Assembly: GCA_964019415.1 (NCBI GenBank) | Contig: OZ025874.1 | Coordinates: 2,315,512 to 2,379,511 of the forward strand | Origin: Ianthella basta | Lineage: Eukaryota; Porifera; Demospongiae; Verongiida; Ianthellidae | Direction of reading: 5' to 3' | DNA length: 64,000 nucleotides | In this document: piece by piece, positions 18,294 through 56,570 of the stretch | Layout: every line of letters begins with the position of its first letter | How positions within the stretch are numbered: the stretch's first letter is position 1 | The notes under the pieces: model-generated | The model's database searches: none | What the model saw: the letters and a program-made list of their open reading frames with translations, nothing else | What the model was told of the DNA's origin: nothing | Position numbers and translations under genes: made by a program

Positions 18294-18564
18294 TTGAACT
18301 CTGTTACTCCAGTTAATGGCAACAGAAGAGCATCTTTGATCTCAGATTCCCCACCCCTATCAACTCAACAATGTGCACGTGTTCTGCTTTATTTTGCTGT
18401 GATCATTCCATGTGCTGCTGTGGTAATCATGGGATGCGGACTACCCATATGTCTTCCCCCGTGGCCTTTCACTAACATCTGGCAGTATCAGGTGTGCTGG
18501 GAAGGCATGTCATGGACCTGGGTTACTGGTATGGAAGAAAGTCAACTCTCCACTGCCACTCCAG
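18294..18564 (+). CDS. TM/Trp-rich exon part of the AIG1 gene, unit 1
   Basis: The frame is open and ends at ACTCCAG|GTACGT (phase 1), as in unit 2. It encodes a hydrophobic helix VLLYFAVIIPCAAVVI and a conserved Trp/Pro/Cys segment LPICLPPWPF, QVCWEGMSWTW and STATPG. In unit 3 this part follows a CARD-like domain in the same exon. Here the upstream half is missing, so the true 5' border is unknown. The next phase-compatible exon is the cassette at 19468. Confidence 0.6.
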
Positions 18565-19467: not shown

Positions 19468-19551
19468 ATGAATTATTGATTACAAGTTCTGTGGCTATCA
19501 CTACCGATCTACTTCAGCCAACGTTGACTAGCACTGGAGTGGAAACTGAAG
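19468..19551 (+). CDS. Ser/Thr-rich cassette exon 1, unit 1
   Basis: An 84-nt exon, acceptor TTAATAG, donor GAAG|GTTTGT, phase 1-1. It encodes DELLITSSVAITTD followed by STGVETEG, a Ser/Thr-rich segment ending in the shared (D/E)TEG signature. It is collinear with 52252-52335 in unit 3. Confidence 0.75.
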
Positions 19552-23003: not shown

Positions 23004-23087
23004 ACGAGTCATTGAGTACAAGCTCTGTGGCTGTCACTACCGACCACCCACAGCCAATATTCCCTAACAGTGGATTGGACACTGAAG
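23004..23087 (+). CDS. Ser/Thr-rich cassette exon 2, unit 1
   Basis: An 84-nt phase 1-1 exon between a TATATAG acceptor and a GAAG|GTTTGT donor. It encodes DESLSTSSVAVTTDHPQP and NSGLDTEG. Its nearest relative is the unit-3 exon at 53195-53278. Confidence 0.75.
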
Positions 23088-23239: not shown

Positions 23240-23323
23240 ATACGCCACTGAGTACAAGTTCTGCATGTACCACTGCCAATCACCCACAGCCAAAGTTGGC
23301 TAGCACTGTTGTGGACACTGAAG
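23240..23323 (+). CDS. Ser/Thr-rich cassette exon 3, unit 1
   Basis: An 84-nt phase 1-1 exon (acceptor CACATAG, donor GAAG|GTTTGT) encoding DTPLSTSSACTTANHPQP and VVDTEG. It is followed in the intron by a nested transposon insertion before the GTPase exon. Confidence 0.75.
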
Positions 23324-27895: not shown

Positions 27896-28857
27896 TTACA
27901 TTTCATCCATGCCACTCGGCATGTAGTCGTGGTCAAACTCCTCCCCACTGTTCCTCGCCTTCTGCCCCTGCAGTTCCATTGTCTCAATGACAAAGTGACC
28001 ACTGGCGTCACTATCGTCAGAGTCCTCGTCATCCCAAAAACGGCACTCCCATGAGCCGTCCTCAAGATCATCAAGATCGTCTAGGTCCTCCAAATCATCT
28101 TCCATCTCATCCACATCGGGCTGATCAGCAGGAGTGCGTTTCACTGTCTCCTTTGGAAATGATGACACCACCTTATGTTCGGGTGATTTGTGGGTATGGA
28201 TGGGAGAGGTGGGGTCCTTTTGTGGCTGCGGGACATTGTGTACTGGTGACTTGATTATGCTCCCAGTGTCAATGCTGACTAAACGCCGTGGTGAGAGCAA
28301 CAATCTGGGCCCTTCCTTCTTCAAAGGAGACTGTTGAGGTGTCAAGGTGACACCTCCTCTGGACGGACTTGAAGTTGGAACTTCACTACCTGTAATCAAA
28401 GGGCCGATAGGGATGTCCTCTAGTGGTGGAGCAGGGTTGCTGTCCTCCTCTTCCTCAGCTACAATTCCTTCTTGTGGGCTGTGGGCGTGGTCAGAAGAGG
28501 GGGTGTGGTCAGTGGGAGGTGATGGAGGGAGCTCCTCATCACCATCAGATAGCTCTTCCTGTATTGCATCATCATCTTCCTCTTCCAAATCTGTTGCTTT
28601 CTTCTGATCATACACCAGTGGTATTATGGCAAGAGCTTCCTTGCAGAACTTTGCTCTCTTCCTCGTGTCCTCATACTTGGTGCCCAGTCTGTCCCTCTTC
28701 CTCCGCAGACGCTCTTCCTTGTTACAAGTATCCCTGACTTCTTCCCTCAAACTCTCCAGCTCTTTATTGCGTTTTGCTATTTCTGCATTCACCTGTGTGA
28801 GTTCGGTTTGGATCTGAGGTGCCTTCTGGCGACAGTACCTGTAAGTCTTTAGAGCAC
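27896..28857 (-). CDS. Acidic coiled-coil protein, last exon, unit 1
   Basis: A large terminal exon after a TACCAG acceptor, entering in phase 1 as G-A-L-K-T-Y-R-Y-C. It begins with a coiled coil (TELTQVNAEIAKRNKELESL, then RLRRKRDRL), then a long acidic, Pro/Ser-rich tail (LEEEDDDAIQEELSDGDEEL, EDDLEDLDDLDDLEDG) and ends MPSGMDEM. I do not recognise the family. The conservation of three paralogues on the protein level, including the acidic blocks, supports a real gene. It is convergent with the GTPase exon, about 1 kb apart. Confidence 0.75.
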
Positions 28858-28997
28858 CTGGTAGCAGTAGAAAGGGAGGAGTCAATGACAGAGCAGTAAG
28901 AAGTGTAAGATGGAGCAACTAATGAAGGCAGTGTTTCATACAAGCAAACTGAACCTTCTCATACGTACATACATACATCACAATGTCACAAACACAC

Positions 28998-29361: not shown

Positions 29362-30888
<1,527 letters not shown>

Positions 30889-30909
30889 TGTGACAATTAG
30901 GTGAAGGAG

Positions 30910-31230
30910 TTAGAATTCCCCCAGAATGCTGAGAAAATCTTGGAATCGTTGCACACCAGTGACAGTGATGGCGTTCTTAACACTCTGTAGTATGCGTGGG
31001 TTCTTGGCTTCCTTGACCTCCTGGAAGTCCCTCACTGCTTCCAGGTCATTATCGCCAAGTAGATGTTTTTGATGATGCTTTAACGCCTCTGACAAACTAT
31101 CCATGCCACTACAAAGCTTTCCAGTCCTTTCTATAACGGCGTTCCTGGCAGCTAGGCTATAAGGATCTTTGACGAGGGAGCGCTGTTGTGTGTACCCAAC
31201 ATCGGAAACAATGGGTGGGATATGAGCCAT
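30910..31230 (-). CDS. CARD-like death-fold protein or exon, unit 1
   Basis: Begins at MAHIPP. I chose this Met because sequence upstream of it carries an indel between the two paralogues, while sequence after it is conserved in frame. About 106 residues: NAVIERTGKLCSGMDSLSEA, HLLGDNDLEAVRDFQEVKEA, RILQSVKNAITVTGVQRFQD then FLSILGEF. The 'I...V..KG...F..FL.IL' ending and the all-helical pattern resemble a CARD. In unit 2 the frame continues past this point: CAA there is TAA here. It may be a short adaptor or the first exon of the coiled-coil gene. It is head-to-head with the unit-2 plus-strand gene. Confidence 0.65.
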   Translation of the reverse strand: MAHIPPIVSDVGYTQQRSLVKDPYSLAARNAVIERTGKLCSGMDSLSEALKHHQKHLLGDNDLEAVRDFQEVKEAKNPRILQSVKNAITVTGVQRFQDFLSILGEF

Positions 31231-31387: not shown

Positions 31388-31498
31388 AAGATGACGCAAT
31401 CTAACGTTGCGGGAACAGTGACAGGGAAAGTCCAAATCAGAGATCACTGGCCGGCAATACTAGCAAGGTGACCCTGGACGGAGACGAAATGACTTCTG
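31388..31498 (+). CDS. Exon 1 of CARD-TM-AIG1 gene, unit 2 (start Met at 31489)
   Basis: Follows a TTGCAG acceptor-like site, which hints at an earlier non-coding exon. It ends in ATGACTTCTG|GTAAGC, phase 1. An upstream frame from 31391 codes for 27 residues and stops just before the start, so it may act as a uORF. The next exon should be at 35656 but the intron now carries the second 3.8-kb transposon copy. Confidence 0.65.
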
Positions 31499-35655: not shown

Positions 35656-36457
35656 ATAATTTGGTGAAGGCAATTTTGCAAGATGTTAAAGATGACATTT
35701 TGACCAAGGTGAATGCCAAAGAGTGTGCACCAGCATTGAGACGTCAAGAGGTAATACCAGAGGAGATTGAGCTTAAAATTCTATCAGAAGCTGCGCAAAG
35801 GCACGGGGGACACTTTATGACCACTTAAAGAGTGATTGCACACTTCGAATTCAGCAGTTAGAGAAACTGGCCGAGGTGCTGGTGGGTGTCGATAGAGCTT
35901 TGGCACAACAAGGGAAGTTGGCCAAGAACTACAGAAACGAATCCAAGGTTCTGATGCATACAAAAGAAGGTCACCTTCACCTGAGGCTAACTCGCCATCA
36001 TTATCTTTGAGCTCAGCCTCGATGCAATTGGCACAGGGGATACTTTGTGATGACTTACAGAAGGAGTGTACACTTCAGCAGACAGAGACACAGGCCGGGG
36101 TGCCGGTGGATGCAGATAGTGGTTTTAGCGCAAAGGAAGCTGGCCAATGATTGCAGAAACGAATCCAAGGTTCTGATGCGCACAAAGGAAGGTCACCTTC
36201 ACCTGAAGCTAACTTGCCATCGTTATCTTCACGTTCAGCCTCCTCGTGCTCGCCCTCAAAGTTACTAACTCTTATAATTACTTTTGCTGTTCCTGTGGTG
36301 GTCATTCCGTGTGCTGCTGCGGTAGTCAAGAGACTACCCATCTGTCTTCCCCCATGGCCTTTCACTAACATCTGGCAGCATCAGATGTGCTGGGAAGGCA
36401 TGCCTTGGACCTGGGTTACCAGCAAAGAAGAAAGTGAACTCTCCACAGCCACTCCAG
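35656..36457 (+). pseudogene. CARD-TM exon, unit 2, frame disrupted
   Basis: Starts after TTCAG and ends ACTCCAG|GTACAT. The CARD-like start (DNLVKAILQDVKDDILTKVN, then VIPEEIELKIL) matches unit 3, but a one-base loss near 35798 (AAAGGCACG versus AAACAGCACG in unit 3) shifts the frame to an early stop. Downstream, a partial internal duplication repeats the TLQQTET...SPEAN linker segment. The TM/Trp-rich end is open again: ITFAVPVVVIPCAAAVV, LPICLPPWPF, STATPG. As a whole the exon cannot give one continuous protein unless the lesion is an assembly error. Confidence 0.75.
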
Positions 36458-38375: not shown

Positions 38376-38459
38376 ATGAGTCACTGAGTACAAGTTCTGT
38401 TGCTTCCACTACCGGCAACCCACAGCCAACGTTGTCTAACAGTGTATTGGATGCTGAAG
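38376..38459 (+). CDS. Ser/Thr-rich cassette exon, unit 2 (first present)
   Basis: An 84-nt phase 1-1 exon (acceptor ATGCAG, donor GAAG|GTTTGT) coding DESLSTSSVASTTGNPQP and NSVLDAEG. Closest to the second cassette of units 1 and 3. Confidence 0.75.
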
Positions 38460-38615: not shown

Positions 38616-38687
38616 ATACGCCATTGAGTACAAGTTCTGCGGCTACCACTACTGCTACCAATCACCCACAGCCAACAAACACTGAAG
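38616..38687 (+). CDS. Ser/Thr-rich cassette exon, unit 2 (second present)
   Basis: A 72-nt phase 1-1 exon (acceptor CGTAG, donor GAAG|GTTTGT) coding DTPLSTSSAATTTATNHPQP and NTEG. Shorter by four residues than its unit-1 counterpart, yet still in frame. Confidence 0.7.
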
Positions 38688-42522: not shown

Positions 42523-43847
42523 GTGTGGAAGTGGTGAAAACAGACACGAATCTTACAGGAGAAGAGCTGCATGCCCTTCAGACTGTTAGTAGTGATGATA
42601 TTGTGTGGCAAATGGTTGGTGTGACCGGAGTGGGAAAGAGCTTGTTAGGGAACTTCTTGCTTGAAAAGGATGAGTTCAAGGTCAAAGGTCCAGGTGTTGC
42701 AGGCTCTGTGACTGATAAAGTTCAAGTGGGCTGCTCTGTCCTGAACAGCCAGCGATTGTGCATCGTGGATACTCCTGGCTGCTTTGATACTCGGCGCGGG
42801 AGAATGCAGAATGAAGAAGCTGAGAACCTGGCAAATGATGTAACCCATTTGGCTGTAGATCTCAGCAAAACTATTCTGATGGCTCGGCATGGCATTCATG
42901 CTTTTTTGGTGGTAGTTCGAGCTGATGTAACAGAATTGGTCAGCACCACAATGCTGTTGGACTTGTTTGGCATTATTGGTAACTTCTGGAACCACACCAT
43001 TGTGGTTTTCACACATGGAAAGAGGTTTGACGAAACAAGTGAGGATAAGAAACACACTGCACTGGAGGCAAGGCTAAACAGTCCCACCAACTGCCCTGAA
43101 GACTGGAAGACTCTCATTGAGAAGGCTGGTAATCGGTATGTGATTGTTGAGTCAAAGGAGTGGCGAGATGACAAAGAATACCACAAGAGAAAGGTGGAAG
43201 AATTTATAAAGCACTCTTCTGCCATTGTCTCTTCTCATGGCCCATACAATGATGCATTGCTTTCTTTGGTCCGGGTTCACATTGAGAATGCCAAGCTTGA
43301 ATTACGCCATGATTTCAGTAACATGGACAGTCCAGAGGCACAGGTTGCAGCACTGCAGATTGCATTTCCAAACATCAAAAGCTCGCTTCACAAGATTATT
43401 AGCATGAAGCTGGCTGGAGGGGTTGATGTTGAAGCAAAGGAAGAAGAATTGTTGGAAGCTCGCAGGCGAAATGACCAGTTGCATCAGCAGGTCCTGAAGG
43501 AGCAAGCAGAAAAGCGCAAGGCTAAGGAAGCAGAAGACAGAGCAAGGGAGAAACAAAGAGTGGCCGAGGAACAAGCAAGAGTGGAACGTGAGGCAGCAGA
43601 GAAGGCTAGAAGGGAATTGGAAGAGTACCTAAAGAAGCCTACATTTGCGGAAAGGGTTGTAGAGACACGTATTACCCGTGAGGGATTCTATAAGTTTCAG
43701 TATAAGTACACTGCTGAGGCTGTAGATGTGGCTACAGGGATAACAGCTAAGGCTAGGAATTACGAATCCAAAGGTGGGGCCAAGGAACATGCTAGAGAGA
43801 ATCTCAAGGCCATTCTACTGGACAGAGGCATCATCCGCAAAGATTGA
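42523..43847 (+). CDS. AIG1/GIMAP-like GTPase exon with coiled coil, unit 2
   Basis: Terminal exon after an ATGCAG acceptor (phase 1, G-V-E-V-V-K-T-D). G1 GVTGVGKS lies at 42618-42641, G3 is DTPGCFDTR and the G4-equivalent is FTHGKRFD. The coiled coil is shorter than in unit 1, lacking the KAEEEKR repeats. The C-terminal domain is conserved: LKKPTFAERVVETRI, VDVATGITAKARNYESKGGA, DRGIIRKD. It is the most divergent of the three paralogues (for example WQMVGVTG instead of WIEIGVTG) and has no internal stop. Its upstream CARD exon is frameshifted, so it may be expressed from an alternative start (an in-frame ATG exists at 42429) or not at all. Confidence 0.9.
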
Positions 43848-44568: not shown

Positions 44569-45530
44569 CTACATATCATCCATGCCACTCGGCATGTAGT
44601 CGTGGTCAAACTCCTCCCCACTGTTTCTCGCTTTCTGCCCTTGCAGTGCCATTGTCTCAATGACAAGATGACCACTGGCGTCACTATCGTCAGAGTCCTC
44701 GTCATCCCGTAACGGCACTCCCATGTAGCCGTCCTCAAGATCACCAAGATCGTCTAGGTCCTCCAAATCATCTTCCATCTCATCCACATCGGGCTGCTCA
44801 GCAGGAGTGCGTTTCACTGTCTCCTTTGGAAATGATGAAACCACCTTCTGTTCGGGTGATTTGTGGGTATGGATGGGAGAGGTGGGGTCCTTTTGTGGCT
44901 GCGGGGCACTGTGTACTGGTGACTTGATTATGGTACCAGTGTCAATGCTGACTGAGCGTCGTGGTGAGAGCAACAATCTGGGCCCTTCCTTCTTCAAAGG
45001 AGACTGTTGAGGTGTCAAGGTGACACCTCCTCTGGATGGACTTGAAGTTGGAACTTCACTACTTGCAATCGAAGGACCGATAGGGATGTCCTCTAGGGGT
45101 GGAGCAGGGTTGCTGTCCTCCTCTTCCTCAGCTACAATTCCTTCTTGTGGGCTGTGGGCGTAGTCTGAAGAGGGGGTGTGGTCAGCGGGAGGTGATGGAG
45201 GGAGCTCCTCATCACCATCAGATAGCTCTTCCTGTATTGCATCATCATCTTCCTCTTCCAAATCTGTTGGTTTCTTCTGATCATACACCAGTGGTATTAT
45301 GGCAAGAGCTTCCTTGCAGAACTTTGCTCTCTTCCTCGTGTCCTCATACTTGGCACCCAGTCTGTCCCTCTTCCTCCGCAGATGCTCTTCCTTGTTACAA
45401 GTATCCCTGACTTCTTCCCTCAAACTCTCCAGCTCTTTATTGCGTTTTGCTATCTCTGCGTTCACCTGTGTGAGTTCGGTTTGGAGCTGAGGTGCCTTCT
45501 GGCGACAATACCTGTAGGTCTTTAGAGCAC
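44569..45530 (-). CDS. Acidic coiled-coil protein, last exon, unit 2
   Basis: Intact counterpart of 27896-28857, same acceptor (TACCAG|G) and phase. It codes the coiled coil from LKTYRYCRQKAPQ through LRRKRDRLGAKYEDTRKRAK, the acidic Pro/Ser tail, and ends GMDDM. The 5' neighbour exon at 45706 has lost its consensus donor, so splicing into this exon may fail in this unit. Function unknown. The long acidic tail could bind basic partners, which is only a general inference. Confidence 0.75.
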
Positions 45531-45705
45531 CTGGTAGCAGTAGAAAGGGAGGAGTCAATGACAGAGCAGTATAAAGTGGAAGATGGAGCCTTCTCGTACG
45601 TACATACATCACAATGTCACAAACAAACACCATGCACACTGCGAGTGCACACACATGCACACCACACAGACACTCACACAGACACACTATCCCTCACAGC
45701 CTTAT

Positions 45706-48615: not shown

Positions 48616-48978
48616 TTAGCTACCATGTAAATCCGATACAATTGGGTGAAGGAGTTGGAATTCTCCCAGAATGCTGAGAAAATCTTGGAATCCTTGCACA
48701 CCAGTGACAGTGATGGCGTTCTTAACACTCTGCAGTATGCGTGAGTTTTTCGCTTCCTTGACCTCCTGGAAGTCCCTCACTGCTTCCAGGTCGTTATCGC
48801 CAAGTAGATGCTTTTGATGAAGCTTTAACGCCACTGACAAACTATCCATTCCACTACAAAGCATTCCAGTCCTTTCTATGACGGCGTTCCTGGCAGTTAG
48901 GCTATAAAGATCTTTGACGAAAGAGGGCTGTTTTTGTGTGTACCCAACAACATCGGGAATGGGTGGGATATGAGCCAT
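48616..48978 (-). CDS. CARD-like death-fold protein or exon, unit 2
   Basis: Begins MAHIPPIPDVVGYTQKQPS and runs about 120 residues to a stop at 48616. Core death-fold segment HLLGDNDLEAVRDFQEVKEA, RILQSVKNAITVTGVQGFQD, FLSILGEF, then FQLLHPIVSDLHGS. A possible donor CATG|GTAGC at 48624 is phase 1 and would join in frame to the exon at 45915, giving a CARD plus acidic coiled-coil protein. Either the short form or the spliced form is possible. Divergent from unit-3 exon 1 at 49088. Confidence 0.68.
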   Translation of the reverse strand: MAHIPPIPDVVGYTQKQPSFVKDLYSLTARNAVIERTGMLCSGMDSLSVALKLHQKHLLGDNDLEAVRDFQEVKEAKNSRILQSVKNAITVTGVQGFQDFLSILGEFQLLHPIVSDLHGS

Positions 48979-49087: not shown

Positions 49088-49189
49088 AAGATGACGCAAT
49101 CTCAACTTGCGGGGACAGTGTAAGGGAAAGTCCGCTATCAGATCACTACAGTAGCAAGGTGACCCTGAACGGAGACGAAATGACTTCTG
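49088..49189 (+). CDS. Exon 1 of CARD-TM-AIG1 gene, unit 3 (start Met at 49180)
   Basis: After TTGCAG. Ends ATGACTTCTG|GTAAAC, phase 1. The upstream ATG at 49091 stops after ten codons here, which argues against it as the true start. Intron 1 is only 366 bp in this unit, without a transposon, showing the ancestral gene layout. Confidence 0.7.
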
Positions 49190-49555
49190 GTAAACAATTG
49201 TCCCTTTCACACGCTCAGATCGTCTTTATATATTATACCAACGACCACGTATAGCTACTTAAAGGTTGAACTAGAGAAGTCGAGGAGTAATAGCTAAATT
49301 GGGTCCCATGGCCATCGGGAGTCTTGTGCCTATACGCGGGCTCCTATTTATAGAAACGAGCTAGGCTGAAAAAGTAATTTTGCCTCCGACAGGATTCGGC
49401 TATGTTTGCTGTTGAGGTTGATTCCAATAGCTACATAGATTTAACCCTAATTGGACATCTGTAGCTCAGATATGTGTGGTAATGTTTGTAGTGGGAGAAG
49501 GGCAACAAATGCTGTAGTCTCTTGTAACTGATTCCTCTTTTTGTGCATTCTTCAG

Positions 49556-50131
49556 ATAATTCAGTGGAGGCAATTTTACAAGATGTTAAAGATGACTTTT
49601 TGACCAAGGTGAATGCCAAAGAGTGTGCGCCAAAGTTAAGACGTCAAGGGGTAATACCAGAGAAGATTGAGACTAAAATTAATCGATCAGAAGATGCGCA
49701 AACAGCACGGGAGATACTTTATGACCACTTACAGAAGGAGGGCACATTTCAGCAGATTGAGACTCTGGCCGAGGTGCTAGCGGATGTTGATAGAGGATTT
49801 GGCAGAACAAAGGAAGTTGGCCGACTGTTGCAAATGCGAATCCGAGGTCCTGATGTACACGAAAGAAGGTCACCTTCATCTGAAGCTAACTCGCCATCAT
49901 CTTTAAGCTCAGCCTCCTCATGCTTGCCCTCAAAGTTACGAACTCTTTTTATTTCTTTTGCTGTTTCTGTGGTGGCCATTCCATGTGCTGCTGTGGTAGT
50001 CAATGGGCCACCCATCTGCCTTCCCCCATGGCCTTTCACTTACATCTGGCAGGATCAGATGTGCTGGGAAGGCATGCCTTGGACCTGGGGTACCAGTATG
50101 GAAGAAAGTGGACTCTCCACAGCCACTCCAT
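49556..50131 (+). CDS. CARD-like plus transmembrane exon, unit 3 (intact)
   Basis: Open from the TTCAG acceptor to a CCAT|GTACGC donor. It codes a CARD-like helix bundle of about 85 residues (NSVEAILQDVKDDFLTKVNA, RRQGVIPEKIETKI, SEDAQTAREILYDHLQKEGT, FQQIETLAEVL), whose 'L..L.KEG...F..L...L' ending is CARD-typical. A Ser-rich linker follows, then a hydrophobic helix LRTLFISFAVSVVAIPCAAV and a conserved Trp/Pro/Cys segment (PPICLPPWPF, MCWEGMPWTW). CARDs recruit caspases or kinases by homotypic contact. The TM helix would anchor the protein in a membrane. The last exon base is T where the other units have G, which weakens the donor. Confidence 0.75.
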
Positions 50132-51057
50132 GTACGCAGAGTGATAGGCATACATAGACTATATGTGGGATCAATGGGTAGATACATACTGTTGGTAAGG
50201 GCATGTATGAAAGAAGGATCACTGGATTTACCAGCCTATTACACCAGTATTGGTGTCACCATTGGCTAGTTGTAGCTATGCTTTTTGCCCATAGTGACAC
50301 ATTATACATAGCACAAAGTGCCATTCTCAAATTCATCGCATTAAATTGTAGGAGAATCTTTACAGCTATAACTGATAGTGGGAAATATTGGCAGGCATGT
50401 AATTCGGCTGATTTGCTAAGAAGTCTAGGCTTTTGGCAGGTTTAAATTTAGCGGATTCTGCATCCTAAATATTGATGACGTCACAGTATATGGCAATGAT
50501 GGAGCACCGTTGGGTCTGGTTTCATATCATTGTAGTAGTGTACCTATAGTTCTCTCTGCAGGCGTTGCTCTCTCATTGGTGTGCATGTAGCTGATGTAAG
50601 TGATGTGAGTCACACTATGCTGCCTACTGTATAGTGGGAAATGACATTGGCAGGATTATAATTTGGCCGATTTGCTATGAAAGGCTTTTGGCAGGGTTTG
50701 GCAGATTCGACATCCTAATCACCAATAACATCACAGAAAATGGCGACGATGGAGCACCATTGGGTGTGGTTTAATGTCATTTCATCAGCGTACCTTCATA
50801 TCTTATATCTCTCTCTCTTCAGATGGTATAGCTGATGTAGGTACCATGAGTTGCACTGTCCTTCTGTCAGGCTTTAATTAGTATCCTTATCCAGCACAAG
50901 AGCTCACCCTCTCAATGCACATGTTCGCTCACCTGCTCTGTCTCCATCTTGAGAAAGGACCGCACTAAAGCACGGCTACTTTACTGTGTAGACACTGAAG
51001 TCCATATCAAATGCAAAAATTACATACACATTGACTGCCTCACAACTGAGCCACCTA

Positions 51058-51883
51058 CACTGTTAAAAATGTGGTGTGATCAGTCACACTGATACTTTAG
51101 TGTGATGTTCACAGTGACACCTGTATCAAGAGACTTCGAAGTATTTCATAACCAAGTTAAAAATGACAAGAGTTTATTTGGAATCCTATACAAGGGGAAG
51201 TTCTATGCAAGCTGTCTAAGTACATAAATGGCTACCCAGGATACAGCTTAGCCTGATGGTATGTTGTGAACAGTGGGAGGACCTCCTCAAACTAAGTATG
51301 CTATTTGTGCAGTTTAATTGTACCGTTAGGGACTGTGCGCTGCAGGGGATGCCGTATTCCCCAGTGAAGTTCAATTTACTGGGGCACCAGATGCCCAATG
51401 TTTGCAGGGGATGCTGTATTCCCTGGTAAAGTTCACTGGGGCACCAGATGCCCAATGTTTGCAGGAATGCTGTCACCCACAAACTATCCTGCCAGGTGCA
51501 TGTGGTATGCTGTGCGCTACATATACAGTGAAACGTCAGAAATATGACCACTATCTGGACCATCCAAAGTTGTCTTATTTTCGAGGTGGTCTTAATTCTG
51601 CAATCAAATTACATGTGTACATGAATTTGGGACTAAACCAAAGCGGTCTTATTTCTAAGGTGGTCATTTTATAGAGGTGGTCGTTTAGTGGGGTTTCACT
51701 GTACACGAATCCTCGAAGTAGTGTACAATATCTGTAGTGAAATGTACCATGAAGCTTTACCCATAGTAGTATGTTGTGTACTGCATGGTTGGAGTGAACA
51801 TCACACTGCAAAAGGGTGTGCTCATAGTAGCACCAGTTCACACCAATTTTGGGTGCAATCAGCACTCCCTAGTTTTAACAGTG
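51058..51883. mobile_element. 826-bp element with CACTGTTAAAA ends and TA target duplication
   Basis: Ends are CACTGTTAAAA and TTTTAACAGTG, flanked by TA on both sides. Units 1 and 2 have the uninterrupted site (CCGCCTACACATCATAC / CTGCCTACACATCATAC), so it arrived after duplication. TA flanks suggest a Tc1/mariner-type family. It holds a MITE at 51526-51701. Confidence 0.8.
51526..51701. mobile_element. MITE copy 1, TA-flanked, nested
   Basis: Begins CAGTGAAACGTCAGAAATA and ends GGGGTTTCACTG, with TA on each side. About 176 bp. Nearly identical to 52016-52192 only 315 bp away. The CAGTGAAACC terminus and TA flanks fit Tc1/mariner/pogo-type MITEs. Confidence 0.85.
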
Positions 51884-52015
51884 TACGCATCATACTTCGA
51901 TACATGAGTGGAAGTAGTGGTGAGGAATTAAATTTGGTGGTTTCTGAAATTTGCTAGAACTACCAAATTTAAAACCCTGTCAATATTTTCCGCTATATAC
52001 ATATACAGTGAAACC

Positions 52016-52192
52016 TCAGAAATAAGACCACTATCCGGACCATGCAAAGTGGTCTTATTTTCGAGGTGGTCTTGATTCTGCAATCAAAAATACACGTGTA
52101 CATGAATTTGGGACTAAACCAAAGCGGTCTTATTTCTAAGGTGGTCATTTTATAGAGGTGGTCGTTTAGTGGGGTTCCACTGTATATAATTA
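52016..52192. mobile_element. MITE copy 2, TA-flanked
   Basis: Begins CAGTGAAACCTCAGAAATAA and ends GGGGTTCCACTG, flanked by TATA and TATA. Same orientation and family as 51526-51701. Confidence 0.85.
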
Positions 52193-52251
52193 TTTCTTAC
52201 ATGGCTATACATGTATAATTATTTCATATTTTGTTTGTGTTGAATTAATAG

Positions 52252-52335
52252 ATGAATCATTGATTACAAGTTCTCTGGCTATCACTACCGATCCCCCACA
52301 GCCAAAGTCGCCTGACAGTGGAGTGGACACTGAAG
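52252..52335 (+). CDS. Ser/Thr-rich cassette exon 1, unit 3
   Basis: An 84-nt phase 1-1 exon (acceptor TTAATAG, donor GAAG|GTTTGT) coding DESLITSSLAITTDPPQP and DSGVDTEG. Confidence 0.75.
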
Positions 52336-53194
52336 GTTTGTCTTGTGTGTTCACCAAATTGTTGTGGTGAGGTGATGTAATGGGTAAGAACTAAGAAAGA
52401 AGTCTTTGCTCAAGAGTATGAGAGAAGCTTTAGAGCTGAAATTACTAATTCTTTGCATCAGGATCTTTCACTGTGAAACCAGCTTACCTGAATCACTTTC
52501 CAAACTCAGCTTCAGAGTCCGCTACTGATGTCCGAAATTGTTAGCAAAGGAATTTATTTACAAGTGACCGCCAATGGTGTCATTATGCAAGAGCTGAACC
52601 ATTACAACTGAACTGGGCTGGTTGTGCTGTATTGGTTGCATGGGCCAAACTGATTTAAGTAAACAAACGAAGTTAACAAGTGTGACTGTTAACCCTTACT
52701 GGTTTTGGACCACTTCAAATCGGATTAATGTTGGCACACATTGTGAACACCCCCTACATAGTCTTGCATGCCAGACCCCCCTCCGGAAGGGTCTGGTATT
52801 ATTGCGTACATCAACTTCAAGTTGTGTCTATAAGACAAGATCCTGTCCTGGCCAATCAGATTTGCTGATTGCTATATGACGTCAGCCTAAATTTAGAGAC
52901 ATGGTGTTGGCCCGCTTGAAGGAGGTTGTTAATTGGATGTACTGCGATTTCACTAGGGTACACTGTAAAAGCAGAGCAAGCTATACAAACAAAACAAAGT
53001 GAATTCAGACACTCCATGCATCACTCGCCGCACTGCCATCCTACCTAAACGTTGTGCAAGAATTAACCACAACTGCAATGAATATATTCCTGTGGTACAG
53101 GTCAGCTTACACAATACTACCAGACCCTCCCACAGGGGGTGTAGCATGCGAGACCAACCCCATATTATAGCCATTGCATATTGTCTGTGTACAG
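52336..53194. other. Intron, unit 3, with a small hairpin element
   Basis: Collinear with unit 1 at both ends. An extra segment at about 52755-52935 contains the hairpin CCAGACCCCCCTCCGGAAGG and TCTGG. A related half-site (CCAGACCCTCCCACAGGGGG) is at 53119 and in unit 1 near 22935. No coding sequence. This is the intron into which the unit-1 LINE jumped. Confidence 0.5.
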
Positions 53195-53278
53195 ATGAGT
53201 CACTGAGTACAAGTTCTGTGGTTGTCACTACCAACCACCCACAGCCAACGTTGCCTAACAGTGGATTGGACACTGAAG
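53195..53278 (+). CDS. Ser/Thr-rich cassette exon 2, unit 3
   Basis: An 84-nt phase 1-1 exon (acceptor GTACAG, donor GAAG|GTATGT) coding DESLSTSSVVVTTNHPQP and NSGLDTEG. Confidence 0.78.
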
Positions 53279-53383
53279 GTATGTTTTGCATGTGTTGTGG
53301 ACATAATGAGGAGTATATAACAGGTAACAGGCCTTTGCTTCCTCTTTGTATATTTGTGGCTATTATATTGCTTGTGTACATAG

Positions 53384-53455
53384 ATGCACCACTGAGTACA
53401 AGTTCTACGGCTACCACTGCCAATGACCCACAGCTAACGTTGACTAGCACTGAAG
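53384..53455 (+). CDS. Ser/Thr-rich cassette exon 3, unit 3
   Basis: A 72-nt phase 1-1 exon (acceptor ACATAG, donor GAAG|GTTTGT) coding DAPLSTSSTATTANDPQL and TSTEG. Confidence 0.75.
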
Positions 53456-53600
53456 GTTTGTACGTCTTGCTTGTTCACCTAGCTATTTATGGACTGGCAG
53501 TTTGATGTTATCAATTCTTGCTTCCATCTTGTAACATGGATATGAGCCAATCACCTTTATTAGCACTCTGTTAATTCTGCTTCTGAATTCATGTGTACAG

Positions 53601-54937
53601 ATATACAGGTGGAGAAACCAGACACAAAGCTTTCAAGAGAAGAGTTGCATTCCCTTCAGACCATTAGTGAAGATGATTTTGTGTGGATAGAGATTGGAGT
53701 GACTGGAGTAGGGAAGAGCACATTAGGGAACTTTCTCCTTGGAAAGTATGTGTTTGAGGTCGAAGGTGCCCTTGTTTCTGTGACTGATAAAGCTCAGGTG
53801 GGCTGCTCTGTGCTGGATGGACATCGCATGTGCATCGTGGATACTCCAGGCTTTGGCGACACTCATCGCATGGGAACACAGAACACTGAAGCGGAGAACC
53901 TGGCCAATGATGCAGCCCATTTGGTTGTGGAGCTCAGCAAGACCATGCTGATGGCAAGGCATGGTGTTCATGCTTTCTTTGTGGTTGTTCGAGCTGACAG
54001 CAGAGAATTGTTTAGCACCACAAAGCTGTTGGACCTGCTTGATATTCTAGGCAACTATTGGGACCACACTATTCTAGTGTTCACCCACGGAAAGGAGTTT
54101 GACAAGGAAAGTGAGGATAAGCAATATGAGAAATTCGAGGCAATGTTAAACAGTCCCAGCTGCCCTGAAATGTGGAAGACTCTCATTGAGAAAGTTAGCA
54201 AGCGATACGTGATTCTAGAGCTAGAGGATTGGAAAGATGACAGAGAATATCATGCAAGAAAGGTTAAGGAGCTTAAAGGGCACTCCTCTGCCATTGTGGC
54301 TGCTCATGGTCCATAAAATGACACTTTACATTCCTTGTTAAAAGAATACATTGAGACTGCCAAACTTGAGTTGCGCAATGAGTTTGAAGATATGGACAGC
54401 CCAGAGGCCCAGGTTGGTGCACTGCAGGTTGCCTTTCAGAATGTCACGGCCATGTTGCACAGGCTCATTCGTATCAAGCTTGCAGGGGGAGTTGACACTG
54501 AGCTGTTCCAAGAGATGGCTAAAACGAAAGAAGAAGAACTTTCAGTAGTTCACAGTCAAAGGGACCAGCTATATCAGCAGTTGTTGAAAGAGCAGGAAGA
54601 AAAGCGCAAGGCTCAGGAAGCAGAAGACAGAGCAAGGGAGGCACAAAGAGTGGCTGAGGAACAAGCAAGAGTGGAACGTGAGGCAGCAGAGAAGACTAGA
54701 AGGGAATTGGAGGAGTACCTAAAGAAGCCTACATTTGAGGAAAGGGTTGTAGAGACAGATGTATCAGGTGGAAACTTCTACAGGTGGGAGTGGGTGTACT
54801 CTGCTGAGGCTGTTGATGTGGCTACAGGGATAAAGGCTGAGGTTCAGAATTACCAATCCAAAGATGGTGCTGAGGAGCGTGCTAGAAAACATCTCAAGGC
54901 CATTCTACTGGAGAGAGGCATCATTCGCAAAGATTAA
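53601..54937 (+). pseudogene. AIG1/GIMAP-like GTPase exon, unit 3, with internal stop
   Basis: After a GTACAG acceptor in phase 1 (D-I-Q-V-E-K-P-D). G1 GVTGVGKS (53696-53719), G3 DTPGFGDTH and the G4-equivalent FTHGKEFD are all intact. It is closest to unit 1. At 54314-54316 the codon is TAA where unit 1 and unit 2 have TAC (AHGPYND), so translation would stop after the GTPase domain, before the coiled coil. The frame is otherwise open to 54937 and codes the same coiled coil and C-terminal domain (EERVVETDV, ERGIIRKD). Either a recent pseudogene, a truncated GTPase-only form, or a base error. The upstream exons of this unit are the best preserved of the three. Confidence 0.8.
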
Positions 54938-55605: not shown

Positions 55606-56570
55606 CTACATATCATCCATGCCACTCGGCATGTAGTCGTGGTCAAACTCCTCCCCACTATTCCTCGCCTTCTGCCCCTGCAGTGCCATTGTCTCAGTGA
55701 CAAGGTGACCACTGGCATCACTATCGTCAGAGTCCTCGTCATCCCGTAACGGCACTCCCATGTAGCCGTCCTCAAGATCATCAAGGTCGTTTAGGTCCTC
55801 CAAATCATCTTCCATCTCATCCACATCGGGCTGCTCAGCAGGAGTGCGTTTTGCTGTCTCCTTTGGAAATGATGACACCACCTTCTGTTTGGGTGATTTG
55901 TGGGTACGGATGGGAGAGGTGGGATCCTTTTGTGGCTGTGGGACATTGTGTACAGGTGACTTGATTATGTTCCCAGTGTCAATGCTGACCGAGCGCCGTG
56001 GTGAGAGCAACAATCTGGGCCCTTCCTTCTTCAAAGGAGACTGTTGAGGTGTCAAGCTGACACCTCCTCTGGACAGACTTGAGGTTGGAACTTCACTACT
56101 TGCAATCGAAGGGCCGATAGGGATGTCCTCTAGGGGTGGAGCAACGTTGCTGTCCTCCTCTTCCTCAGCTACAATTCTTTCTTGTGGGCTGTGGGCGTGG
56201 TCAGAAGAGGGGTGTGGTCAGCGGGAGGTGATGGAGGGAGCTCCTCATCACCATCAGATAGCTCTTCCTGTATTGCATCATCATCCTCCTCTTCCAAATT
56301 TGTTGGTTTCTTCTGATCATACACCAGTGGTGTTATGGCAAGAGCTTCCTTGCAGAACTTTGCTCTCTTCCTCGTGTCCTCATACTTGGCACCCAGTCTG
56401 TCCCTCTTCCTCCGCAGACGCTCTTCCTTGTTACAAGTGTCCCTGACTTCTTCCCTCAAACTCTCCAGCTCCTTATTGCGTTTTGCGATCTCTGCGTTCA
56501 CCTGTGTGAGTTCAGTTTGGAGCTGAGGTGCCTTCGATCTGGCGACAGTACCTATAGGTCTTTAGAGCAC
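55606..56570 (-). pseudogene. Acidic coiled-coil protein, last exon, unit 3, frame disrupted
   Basis: Homologous to 27896-28857 and 44569-45530. The coiled-coil half (NAEIAKRNKELESLREEVRD onward) and the acidic tail (ending GMDDM) are in different frames because one G of a run near 56212 is missing. A 4-bp insertion near 56535 also changes the frame near the acceptor. The upstream exon with SEFISLLTKAV is absent, replaced by CA tracts. This unit's coiled-coil gene is therefore dead. Confidence 0.8.

Follow-up and report, generated by a model that had tools for sequence, protein, structure and literature searches.

A tandem gene family in the sponge Ianthella basta with exons for a CARD-type domain, a hydrophobic segment and an AIG1/GIMAP GTPase

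We analyzed a 64,000-nucleotide stretch of the genome of the sponge Ianthella basta (contig OZ025874.1, here C7, positions 2315512-2379511; hereafter the window) and searched the 209-Mb genome for copies of the three units (1-3) that it carries. The units belong to a tandem gene family with exons for a candidate N-terminal CARD, a hydrophobic segment, Ser/Thr-rich cassettes and an AIG1 GTPase. An intact member would begin with a short start exon and the CARD, continue with the hydrophobic segment and two or three Ser/Thr exons, and end with the AIG1 domain, a charged helix resembling a coiled coil and a C-terminal domain of small size. These genes probably form a GIMAP-type family in which pairing of the AIG1 domains clusters the CARDs to engage NLR-type partners, the hydrophobic segment anchoring the protein to a membrane. 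Unit counts given below are lower bounds, 150 candidates having been scored per genome search.

The GTPase and the N-terminal domain

The terminal exon of unit 3 encodes, beyond doubt, a GTPase of the AIG1/GIMAP type, as a preliminary description of this DNA had proposed. The match to Pfam AIG1 lies well above the curated cut-off (27) both in unit 2 (E 1.3e-21, 77.3 bits) and in unit 3 (E 3.1e-21, 76.1 bits), and the nearest solved chains in PDB are GIMAP5, 4 and 7. The P-loop GVTGVGKS and the sequence DTPG, which we take to represent the motifs GxxGxGKS/T and DxPG, are intact in all three units. NACHT was not found in the scanned exons of units 2 and 3, which show AIG1. Following the GTPase, a long charged, helix-like stretch is visible that may form a coiled coil.

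The assignment of the N-terminal domain as CARD-type is supported at the level of the family profile and the predicted fold. In profile-profile comparison (hhalign), a family of 25 members (A1) reached 93.7% with the CARD set (E 2e-7), which held 13 of 20 loci after exclusion of the near-duplicates L067, L070-L073 and L077 and of L061, for which the frame was not found. The reversed profile and 30 shuffled versions reached at most 0.5%. A Death-domain identity was ruled out, since the Death profile (12 pieces less L079) gave 0.6% against 93.7% for CARD. The modelled structure is a six-helix bundle with a broken first helix and fits solved CARDs. Searched against the 20 CARD loci, the A1 profile gave weak matches to four domains that are Pfam-CARD-positive (E 3e-4 to 5e-3) and a strong match to one open reading frame (ORF) adjoining a CARD. 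Within the family, PF00619 is matched by three members (best 0.012) and Dark_CARD by one (0.009); two unrelated families also match one member each (0.007-0.009). No CARD was returned by single-sequence searches of the domain in Pfam, NCBIfam and PDB, or by a search of the A1 profile against PDB sequences. The one relative of this CARD that was checked for a NACHT partner (L039, C2:1653000-1655800; kinship E 9.9e-17) shares an open frame with NACHT.

Next to unit 3 lies another CARD-like ORF (MAHIPP..., 120 codons; 48616-48978, reverse strand), arranged head to head with the start of the unit at 49180 on the forward strand, 201 bp away. Compared by hhalign, it reached 66.4% with the CARD set (E 5.5e-5; score 30.2, the highest of 30 shuffles being 18.4), 0.8% with the Death set and 0.4% with the A1 family itself. 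Its counterpart in unit 2 (30874-31230, reverse strand), opposite the start at 31489 on the forward strand, has a stop after GEF. At least 20 matching pieces were found, 19 on C7 and one on C1, several of them with internal stops. The ORF may represent a CARD-only protein or a first exon.

Evidence for a single gene

The boundaries of the coding regions were compared among copies. At the acceptor of the AIG1 exon (12 copies, 66 pairs), no indels are present inside the exon, and of the 209 gaps found upstream of it 173 have lengths not divisible by three. This pattern implies that coding starts at the splice site, and hence that the exon requires an upstream partner. At the donor of the transmembrane (TM) exon, which encodes the hydrophobic segment (13 copies, 78 pairs), there are no gaps inside and 368 beyond the edge, of which 300 are not multiples of three. 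All internal exon edges of unit 3 are AG/GT and of phase 1. Across its donor site, the CARD-hydrophobic exon of unit 3 reads AT/GT; AG/GT is found at this site in the remaining 12 of the 13 copies aligned. The proposed agreement in phase and strand of this exon, the Ser/Thr cassettes and the AIG1 exon is borne out.

Three loci outside the window bear on how the exons are joined. In a contiguous copy (C7:2213051-2216875), 709 codons are open over five phase-1 exons (CARD, hydrophobic, two Ser/Thr and AIG1), a figure that covers these five exons, the start exon not having been identified. In a compact locus (C7:2055337-2057211), the CARD, hydrophobic and AIG1 exons stand within 1.9 kb, and the GTPase frame ends early. 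The third locus (L019, C7:2140841-2142191) is an open gene of 213 codons with no GTPase, in which a start exon is followed by one exon for the CARD and one for the C-terminal domain of the GTPase protein; its last exon is an open frame without ATG. A second copy of this CARD and C-terminal-domain gene, near C7:2230412, has a stop in the CARD, and the splice words of the 213-codon gene were not found there. A further locus, C7:2174024-2181842, was seen to be open exon by exon. Because of the conserved phase-1 sites, the exact coding edges, the 709-codon copy and the 213-codon gene, we favour the reading from sequence that the CARD, TM and GTPase exons belong to one gene, which would give a joint transcript.

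An identical start exon was found at eight distinct places (window positions 374, 31489 and 49180; loci L010, L011, L012, L014 and L018) with a search pattern that required GGT or GGC at its edge. The coding start assumed previously, at 49088, lacks support: in unit 2 this frame contains a stop, and the start exon that recurs among copies is, in unit 3, ATGACTTCTG/GT at 49180.

The tandem family on C7

At least 15 AIG1 exons are located on C7 within 400 kb (2.056-2.450 Mb), 15 of 15 on the forward strand, so that the term 'triplicated' used earlier is incorrect. A hydrophobic exon stands before 13 of these 15 exons, compared with a mean of 7.5 in random order (P 1.1e-4, 100,000 shuffles); the test took 15 hydrophobic-exon places, hand-picked, one per place. 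The alternation indicates co-duplication as a unit and is, taken alone, no proof of one gene. A second copy of the unit 3 CARD exon at C7:2187575, with a printed identity of 100% over 200 residues, points to recent duplication.

The median ratio of nonsynonymous to synonymous substitution rates (dN/dS) is lowest for the GTPase (0.38; 9 sequences, 35 of 36 pairs with dS > 0.05), followed by the C-terminal domain (0.51; 9 sequences, 35 of 36 pairs), the CARD (0.60; 9 sequences, 36 pairs) and the hydrophobic exon (0.71; 13 sequences, 78 pairs). The family is therefore under overall constraint, the hydrophobic exon least so.

The three units of the window

All three units of the window look damaged (Table 1). 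For unit 1, two CARD queries run by tblastn against the window detected no CARD exon; the CARD exon of unit 2 is frameshifted, and the GTPase exon of unit 3 is interrupted by a stop. With this stop and the AT/GT donor, unit 3 does not present the intact ancestral layout that had been ascribed to it.

Table 1. Positions of features of the three units, numbered from the first letter of the window
Feature	Position	Strand	Remark
Unit 3 start exon	49180..49189	+	ATGACTTCTG/GTAAAC; encodes MTS and the first base of the next codon
Unit 3 CARD and hydrophobic exon, phase 1-1	49556..50131	+	splice edges, frame; donor edge exact in 13 copies
Unit 3 CARD (CARD-type by family profile and model)	49564..49845	+	model helices within residues 4-97
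Unit 3 hydrophobic, membrane-span-like segment	49945..50001	+	19-residue mean hydropathy 2.64
Unit 3 Ser/Thr exon 1, phase 1-1	52252..52335	+	
Unit 3 Ser/Thr exon 2, phase 1-1	53195..53278	+	
Unit 3 Ser/Thr exon 3, phase 1-1	53384..53455	+	
Unit 3 terminal exon (AIG1 GTPase, charged helix, C-terminal domain), interrupted by in-frame stop	53601..54937	+	acceptor edge exact in 12 copies
Unit 3 AIG1 GTPase domain	53693..54310	+	Pfam AIG1; nearest PDB chains GIMAP5, 4, 7
Unit 3 in-frame TAA within GTPase exon	54314..54316	+	
Unit 3 C-terminal domain, 3' of TAA	54701..54934	+	dsRBD-like fold predicted from model of unit 2 copy
Unit 2 start exon	31489..31498	+	
Unit 2 CARD-TM exon, frameshifted, with stop	about 35656..36457	+	donor AG/GTACAT
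Unit 2 Ser/Thr exon 1	38376..38459	+	
Unit 2 Ser/Thr exon 2	38616..38687	+	
Unit 2 AIG1 exon, open up to stop codon	42523..43847	+	
Unit 2 C-terminal domain	43611..43844	+	copy used for modelling
Unit 1 hydrophobic exon, 3' part	18429..18564	+	upstream CARD exon not found
Unit 1 Ser/Thr exon 1	19468..19551	+	
Unit 1 Ser/Thr exon 2	23004..23087	+	
Unit 1 Ser/Thr exon 3	23240..23323	+	
Unit 1 AIG1 exon, open up to stop codon	25538..26916	+	

That these three units are relics without function has a chance only a little short of even. The CARD exon not found for unit 1, the frameshift in that of unit 2 and the stop and changed donor of unit 3 all speak for it. Against it, the GTPase exons of units 1 and 2 are wholly open and the GTPase is constrained across the family; moreover, a truncated or GTPase-only product could be made, and single-base assembly errors may explain the stop and the frameshift.

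Two further features were observed in this region. A partial second CARD half is present within the CARD exon of unit 2 and of its copy at C7:2174408. In addition, a gene for an acidic coiled coil is repeated between the units on the reverse strand (27896-28918, 44569-45693 and 55606-56561), and for the one at 44569-45693, Pfam gives a weak match to CCDC113/CCDC96 (1.5e-6) below the cut-off.

Membrane topology and alternative readings

The following observations weigh against a joint, membrane-anchored CARD-GTPase protein. The window's own N-terminal domain (49564-49845) gives no Pfam CARD match, a result that the preliminary description had named as refuting the proposed architecture; formally this holds for the single-sequence scan, but it is outweighed by the family profile and the fold. 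Two of the 15 AIG1 exons lack a preceding TM exon, and some CARD exons have no AIG1 exon of their own. Values of dN/dS above 1 occur in 17% of the TM-exon pairs, and in 6% each of the CARD and C-terminal-domain pairs. The TAA cuts the GTPase exon of unit 3 into 237 and 206 codons. Finally, a single span between the CARD and the GTPase would place them on opposite sides of the membrane, and the Ser/Thr/Pro exons directly after the span resemble what would be an outside stalk.

The hydrophobic segment itself is a constant feature, its best 19-residue mean hydropathy being 2.42-2.98 in all 13 copies examined. Each of these copies has basic residues ahead of the span, and several have one directly after it as well; the flanking basic residues do not settle the direction of the span. 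Because a single span would separate the two domains, the earlier idea of a membrane-anchored, GTP-switched CARD platform is weakened, and we rate it as possible, not established. A hairpin, or isoforms without the segment where it occupies a separate exon, would remove the difficulty.

One locus might accordingly give rise to different isoforms, a CARD-TM-Ser/Thr and a CARD-GTPase product formed by skipping of phase-1 exons, with the span never between CARD and GTPase. Skipping of the internal exons, which are of phase 1-1, would preserve the frame; the CARD and TM are on separate exons in L027, L028 and L035/L037; one CARD gene has neither TM nor GTPase; and Bg8770 of the snail Biomphalaria has isoforms with and without the CARD, according to the part of the report available (PMC7053062). 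On the other hand, unit 3, L011 and L012 carry the CARD and the hydrophobic segment in one open exon, where the TM cannot be skipped alone. We regard this division into isoforms as unlikely, yet worth keeping in mind.

A pair of adjacent genes, a receptor-like CARD-TM gene and a GIMAP gene, duplicated together is improbable. It would make the topology problem vanish, it would suit the distances of 0.7 to 31.7 kb at which the AIG1 match follows the beginning of the TM-exon match, and in some copies, such as P0003, the upstream flank of the GTPase exon contains an in-frame ATG. A GTPase starting at its own upstream ATG was nevertheless ruled out, since this flank does not evolve as coding sequence. 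In addition, a conserved donor closes the TM exon with no stop before it, and the 213-codon gene, 1.35 kb long, joins the CARD to the C-terminal domain of the GTPase protein.

The C-terminal domain

The C-terminal domain, modelled from the unit 2 copy, is predicted to have an alpha-beta-beta-beta-alpha, dsRBD-like fold. Its sequence showed no match to dsrm at E up to 1, and hhalign against the 15 dsRBDs of the genome gave 0.5% with a score of 11.9, below the shuffle maximum of 12.6 (30 shuffles); we therefore call the domain dsRBD-like and not a dsRBD. In the last helix, positions 54, 58 and 62 carry a basic residue in 88, 84 and 84%, respectively, of the 32 sequences compared, and a GPxH-type loop was not seen between the first strands in the alignment. 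Both features, the basic residues of the last helix and the GPxH-type loop, are what we presume to be the RNA-contact motifs of dsRBDs. Relatives of the domain outside the C7 array are found at C6:5046745 and C6:7313344.

A GIMAP-based, RIG-I/MAVS-like RNA-sensing adaptor, in which the dsRBD-like end would detect RNA, GTP-dependent AIG1 pairing set the threshold and the NLR-type CARD and membrane segment signal, with the 213-codon gene as a minimal form and the head-to-head ORF as a regulator, is very unlikely.

Proposed mode of action

For the favoured single-gene protein, GTP-dependent pairing of the AIG1 domains, aided by the charged helix, would most likely draw the N-terminal CARDs together. 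A CARD of this type appears to stand at the head of an NLR-like gene elsewhere in the genome, and clustered CARDs might recruit or seed the CARDs of NLR-type partners. The hydrophobic segment would anchor the protein to a membrane, as a hairpin or in some splice forms only. Should such a joint protein be produced, GIMAPs could provide input to the CARD assemblies that NLRs also feed, and RNA would join the possible triggers by way of the dsRBD-like end.

Comparison with known systems

The architecture had been considered undescribed. However, proteins with an N-terminal CARD and AIG1 have been published for Biomphalaria glabrata (PMC7053062) and amphioxus (PMC12373286), as the accessible parts of both papers state, and the sponge array is a variant of this known combination. 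The order CARD-TM-AIG1 was not named in the literature searched (open-licence PMC papers, seen in part), and AIG1 with 'double-stranded RNA-binding', or GIMAP with 'dsRBD', had no joint mention there.

Other sponges provide partial parallels, each taken from a partial text. Sponge NLRs with N-terminal CARD or Death domains have been described (PMC12909245); the likeness to the CARD-NACHT-LRR type (NLRC) lies in the relative of the present CARD that shares an open frame with NACHT, and the difference is that these NLRs have NACHT where the genes of the array have the AIG1 GTPase. In Dysidea avara, IAN/GIMAP genes respond to foreign symbionts; this is likewise a GIMAP family in a sponge, with CARD unmentioned in the main text (PMC11229196). 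Amphimedon is stated to lack AIG genes, as far as known (PMC7053062), and the amphioxus study also used AIG1 sequences from Halichondria panicea (PMC12373286).

Vertebrate GIMAP2, 4, 5 and 7 resemble the sponge family in combining the AIG1 GTPase with a helical extension, and some of them are membrane-bound. GTP binding induces dimers of GIMAP2, and membrane-bound GIMAPs have been proposed as scaffolds; in contrast to the sponge genes, the membrane segment is C-terminal and a CARD is unnamed in the portion of the source available (PMC8201404).

The snail and amphioxus proteins are closer. In B. glabrata, where the AIG genes show 19 architectures and 12 genes have predicted TM segments, an N-terminal CARD is combined with AIG1 and a coiled coil, including splice variants of Bg8770. 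The Bg8770 type (DD-CARD, AIG1 and coiled coil) would share with the sponge family the N-terminal CARD, the AIG1 domain, a coiled coil that is putative in the sponge, the tandem arrays and possibly the isoforms, whereas the CARD-TM-AIG1 order, the Ser/Thr exons and the C-terminal domain are unnamed in the partial description used for comparison (PMC7053062). The amphioxus CARD+AIG1+HINT proteins likewise carry an N-terminal CARD before AIG1 in an expanded, variable family, but have a C-terminal HINT in place of the sponge domain, with a hydrophobic exon unnamed in the excerpt consulted (PMC12373286). The I. basta array would thus tie an NLR-type CARD to a GIMAP GTPase in a lineage distant from snails and amphioxus, and in a large and variable array.

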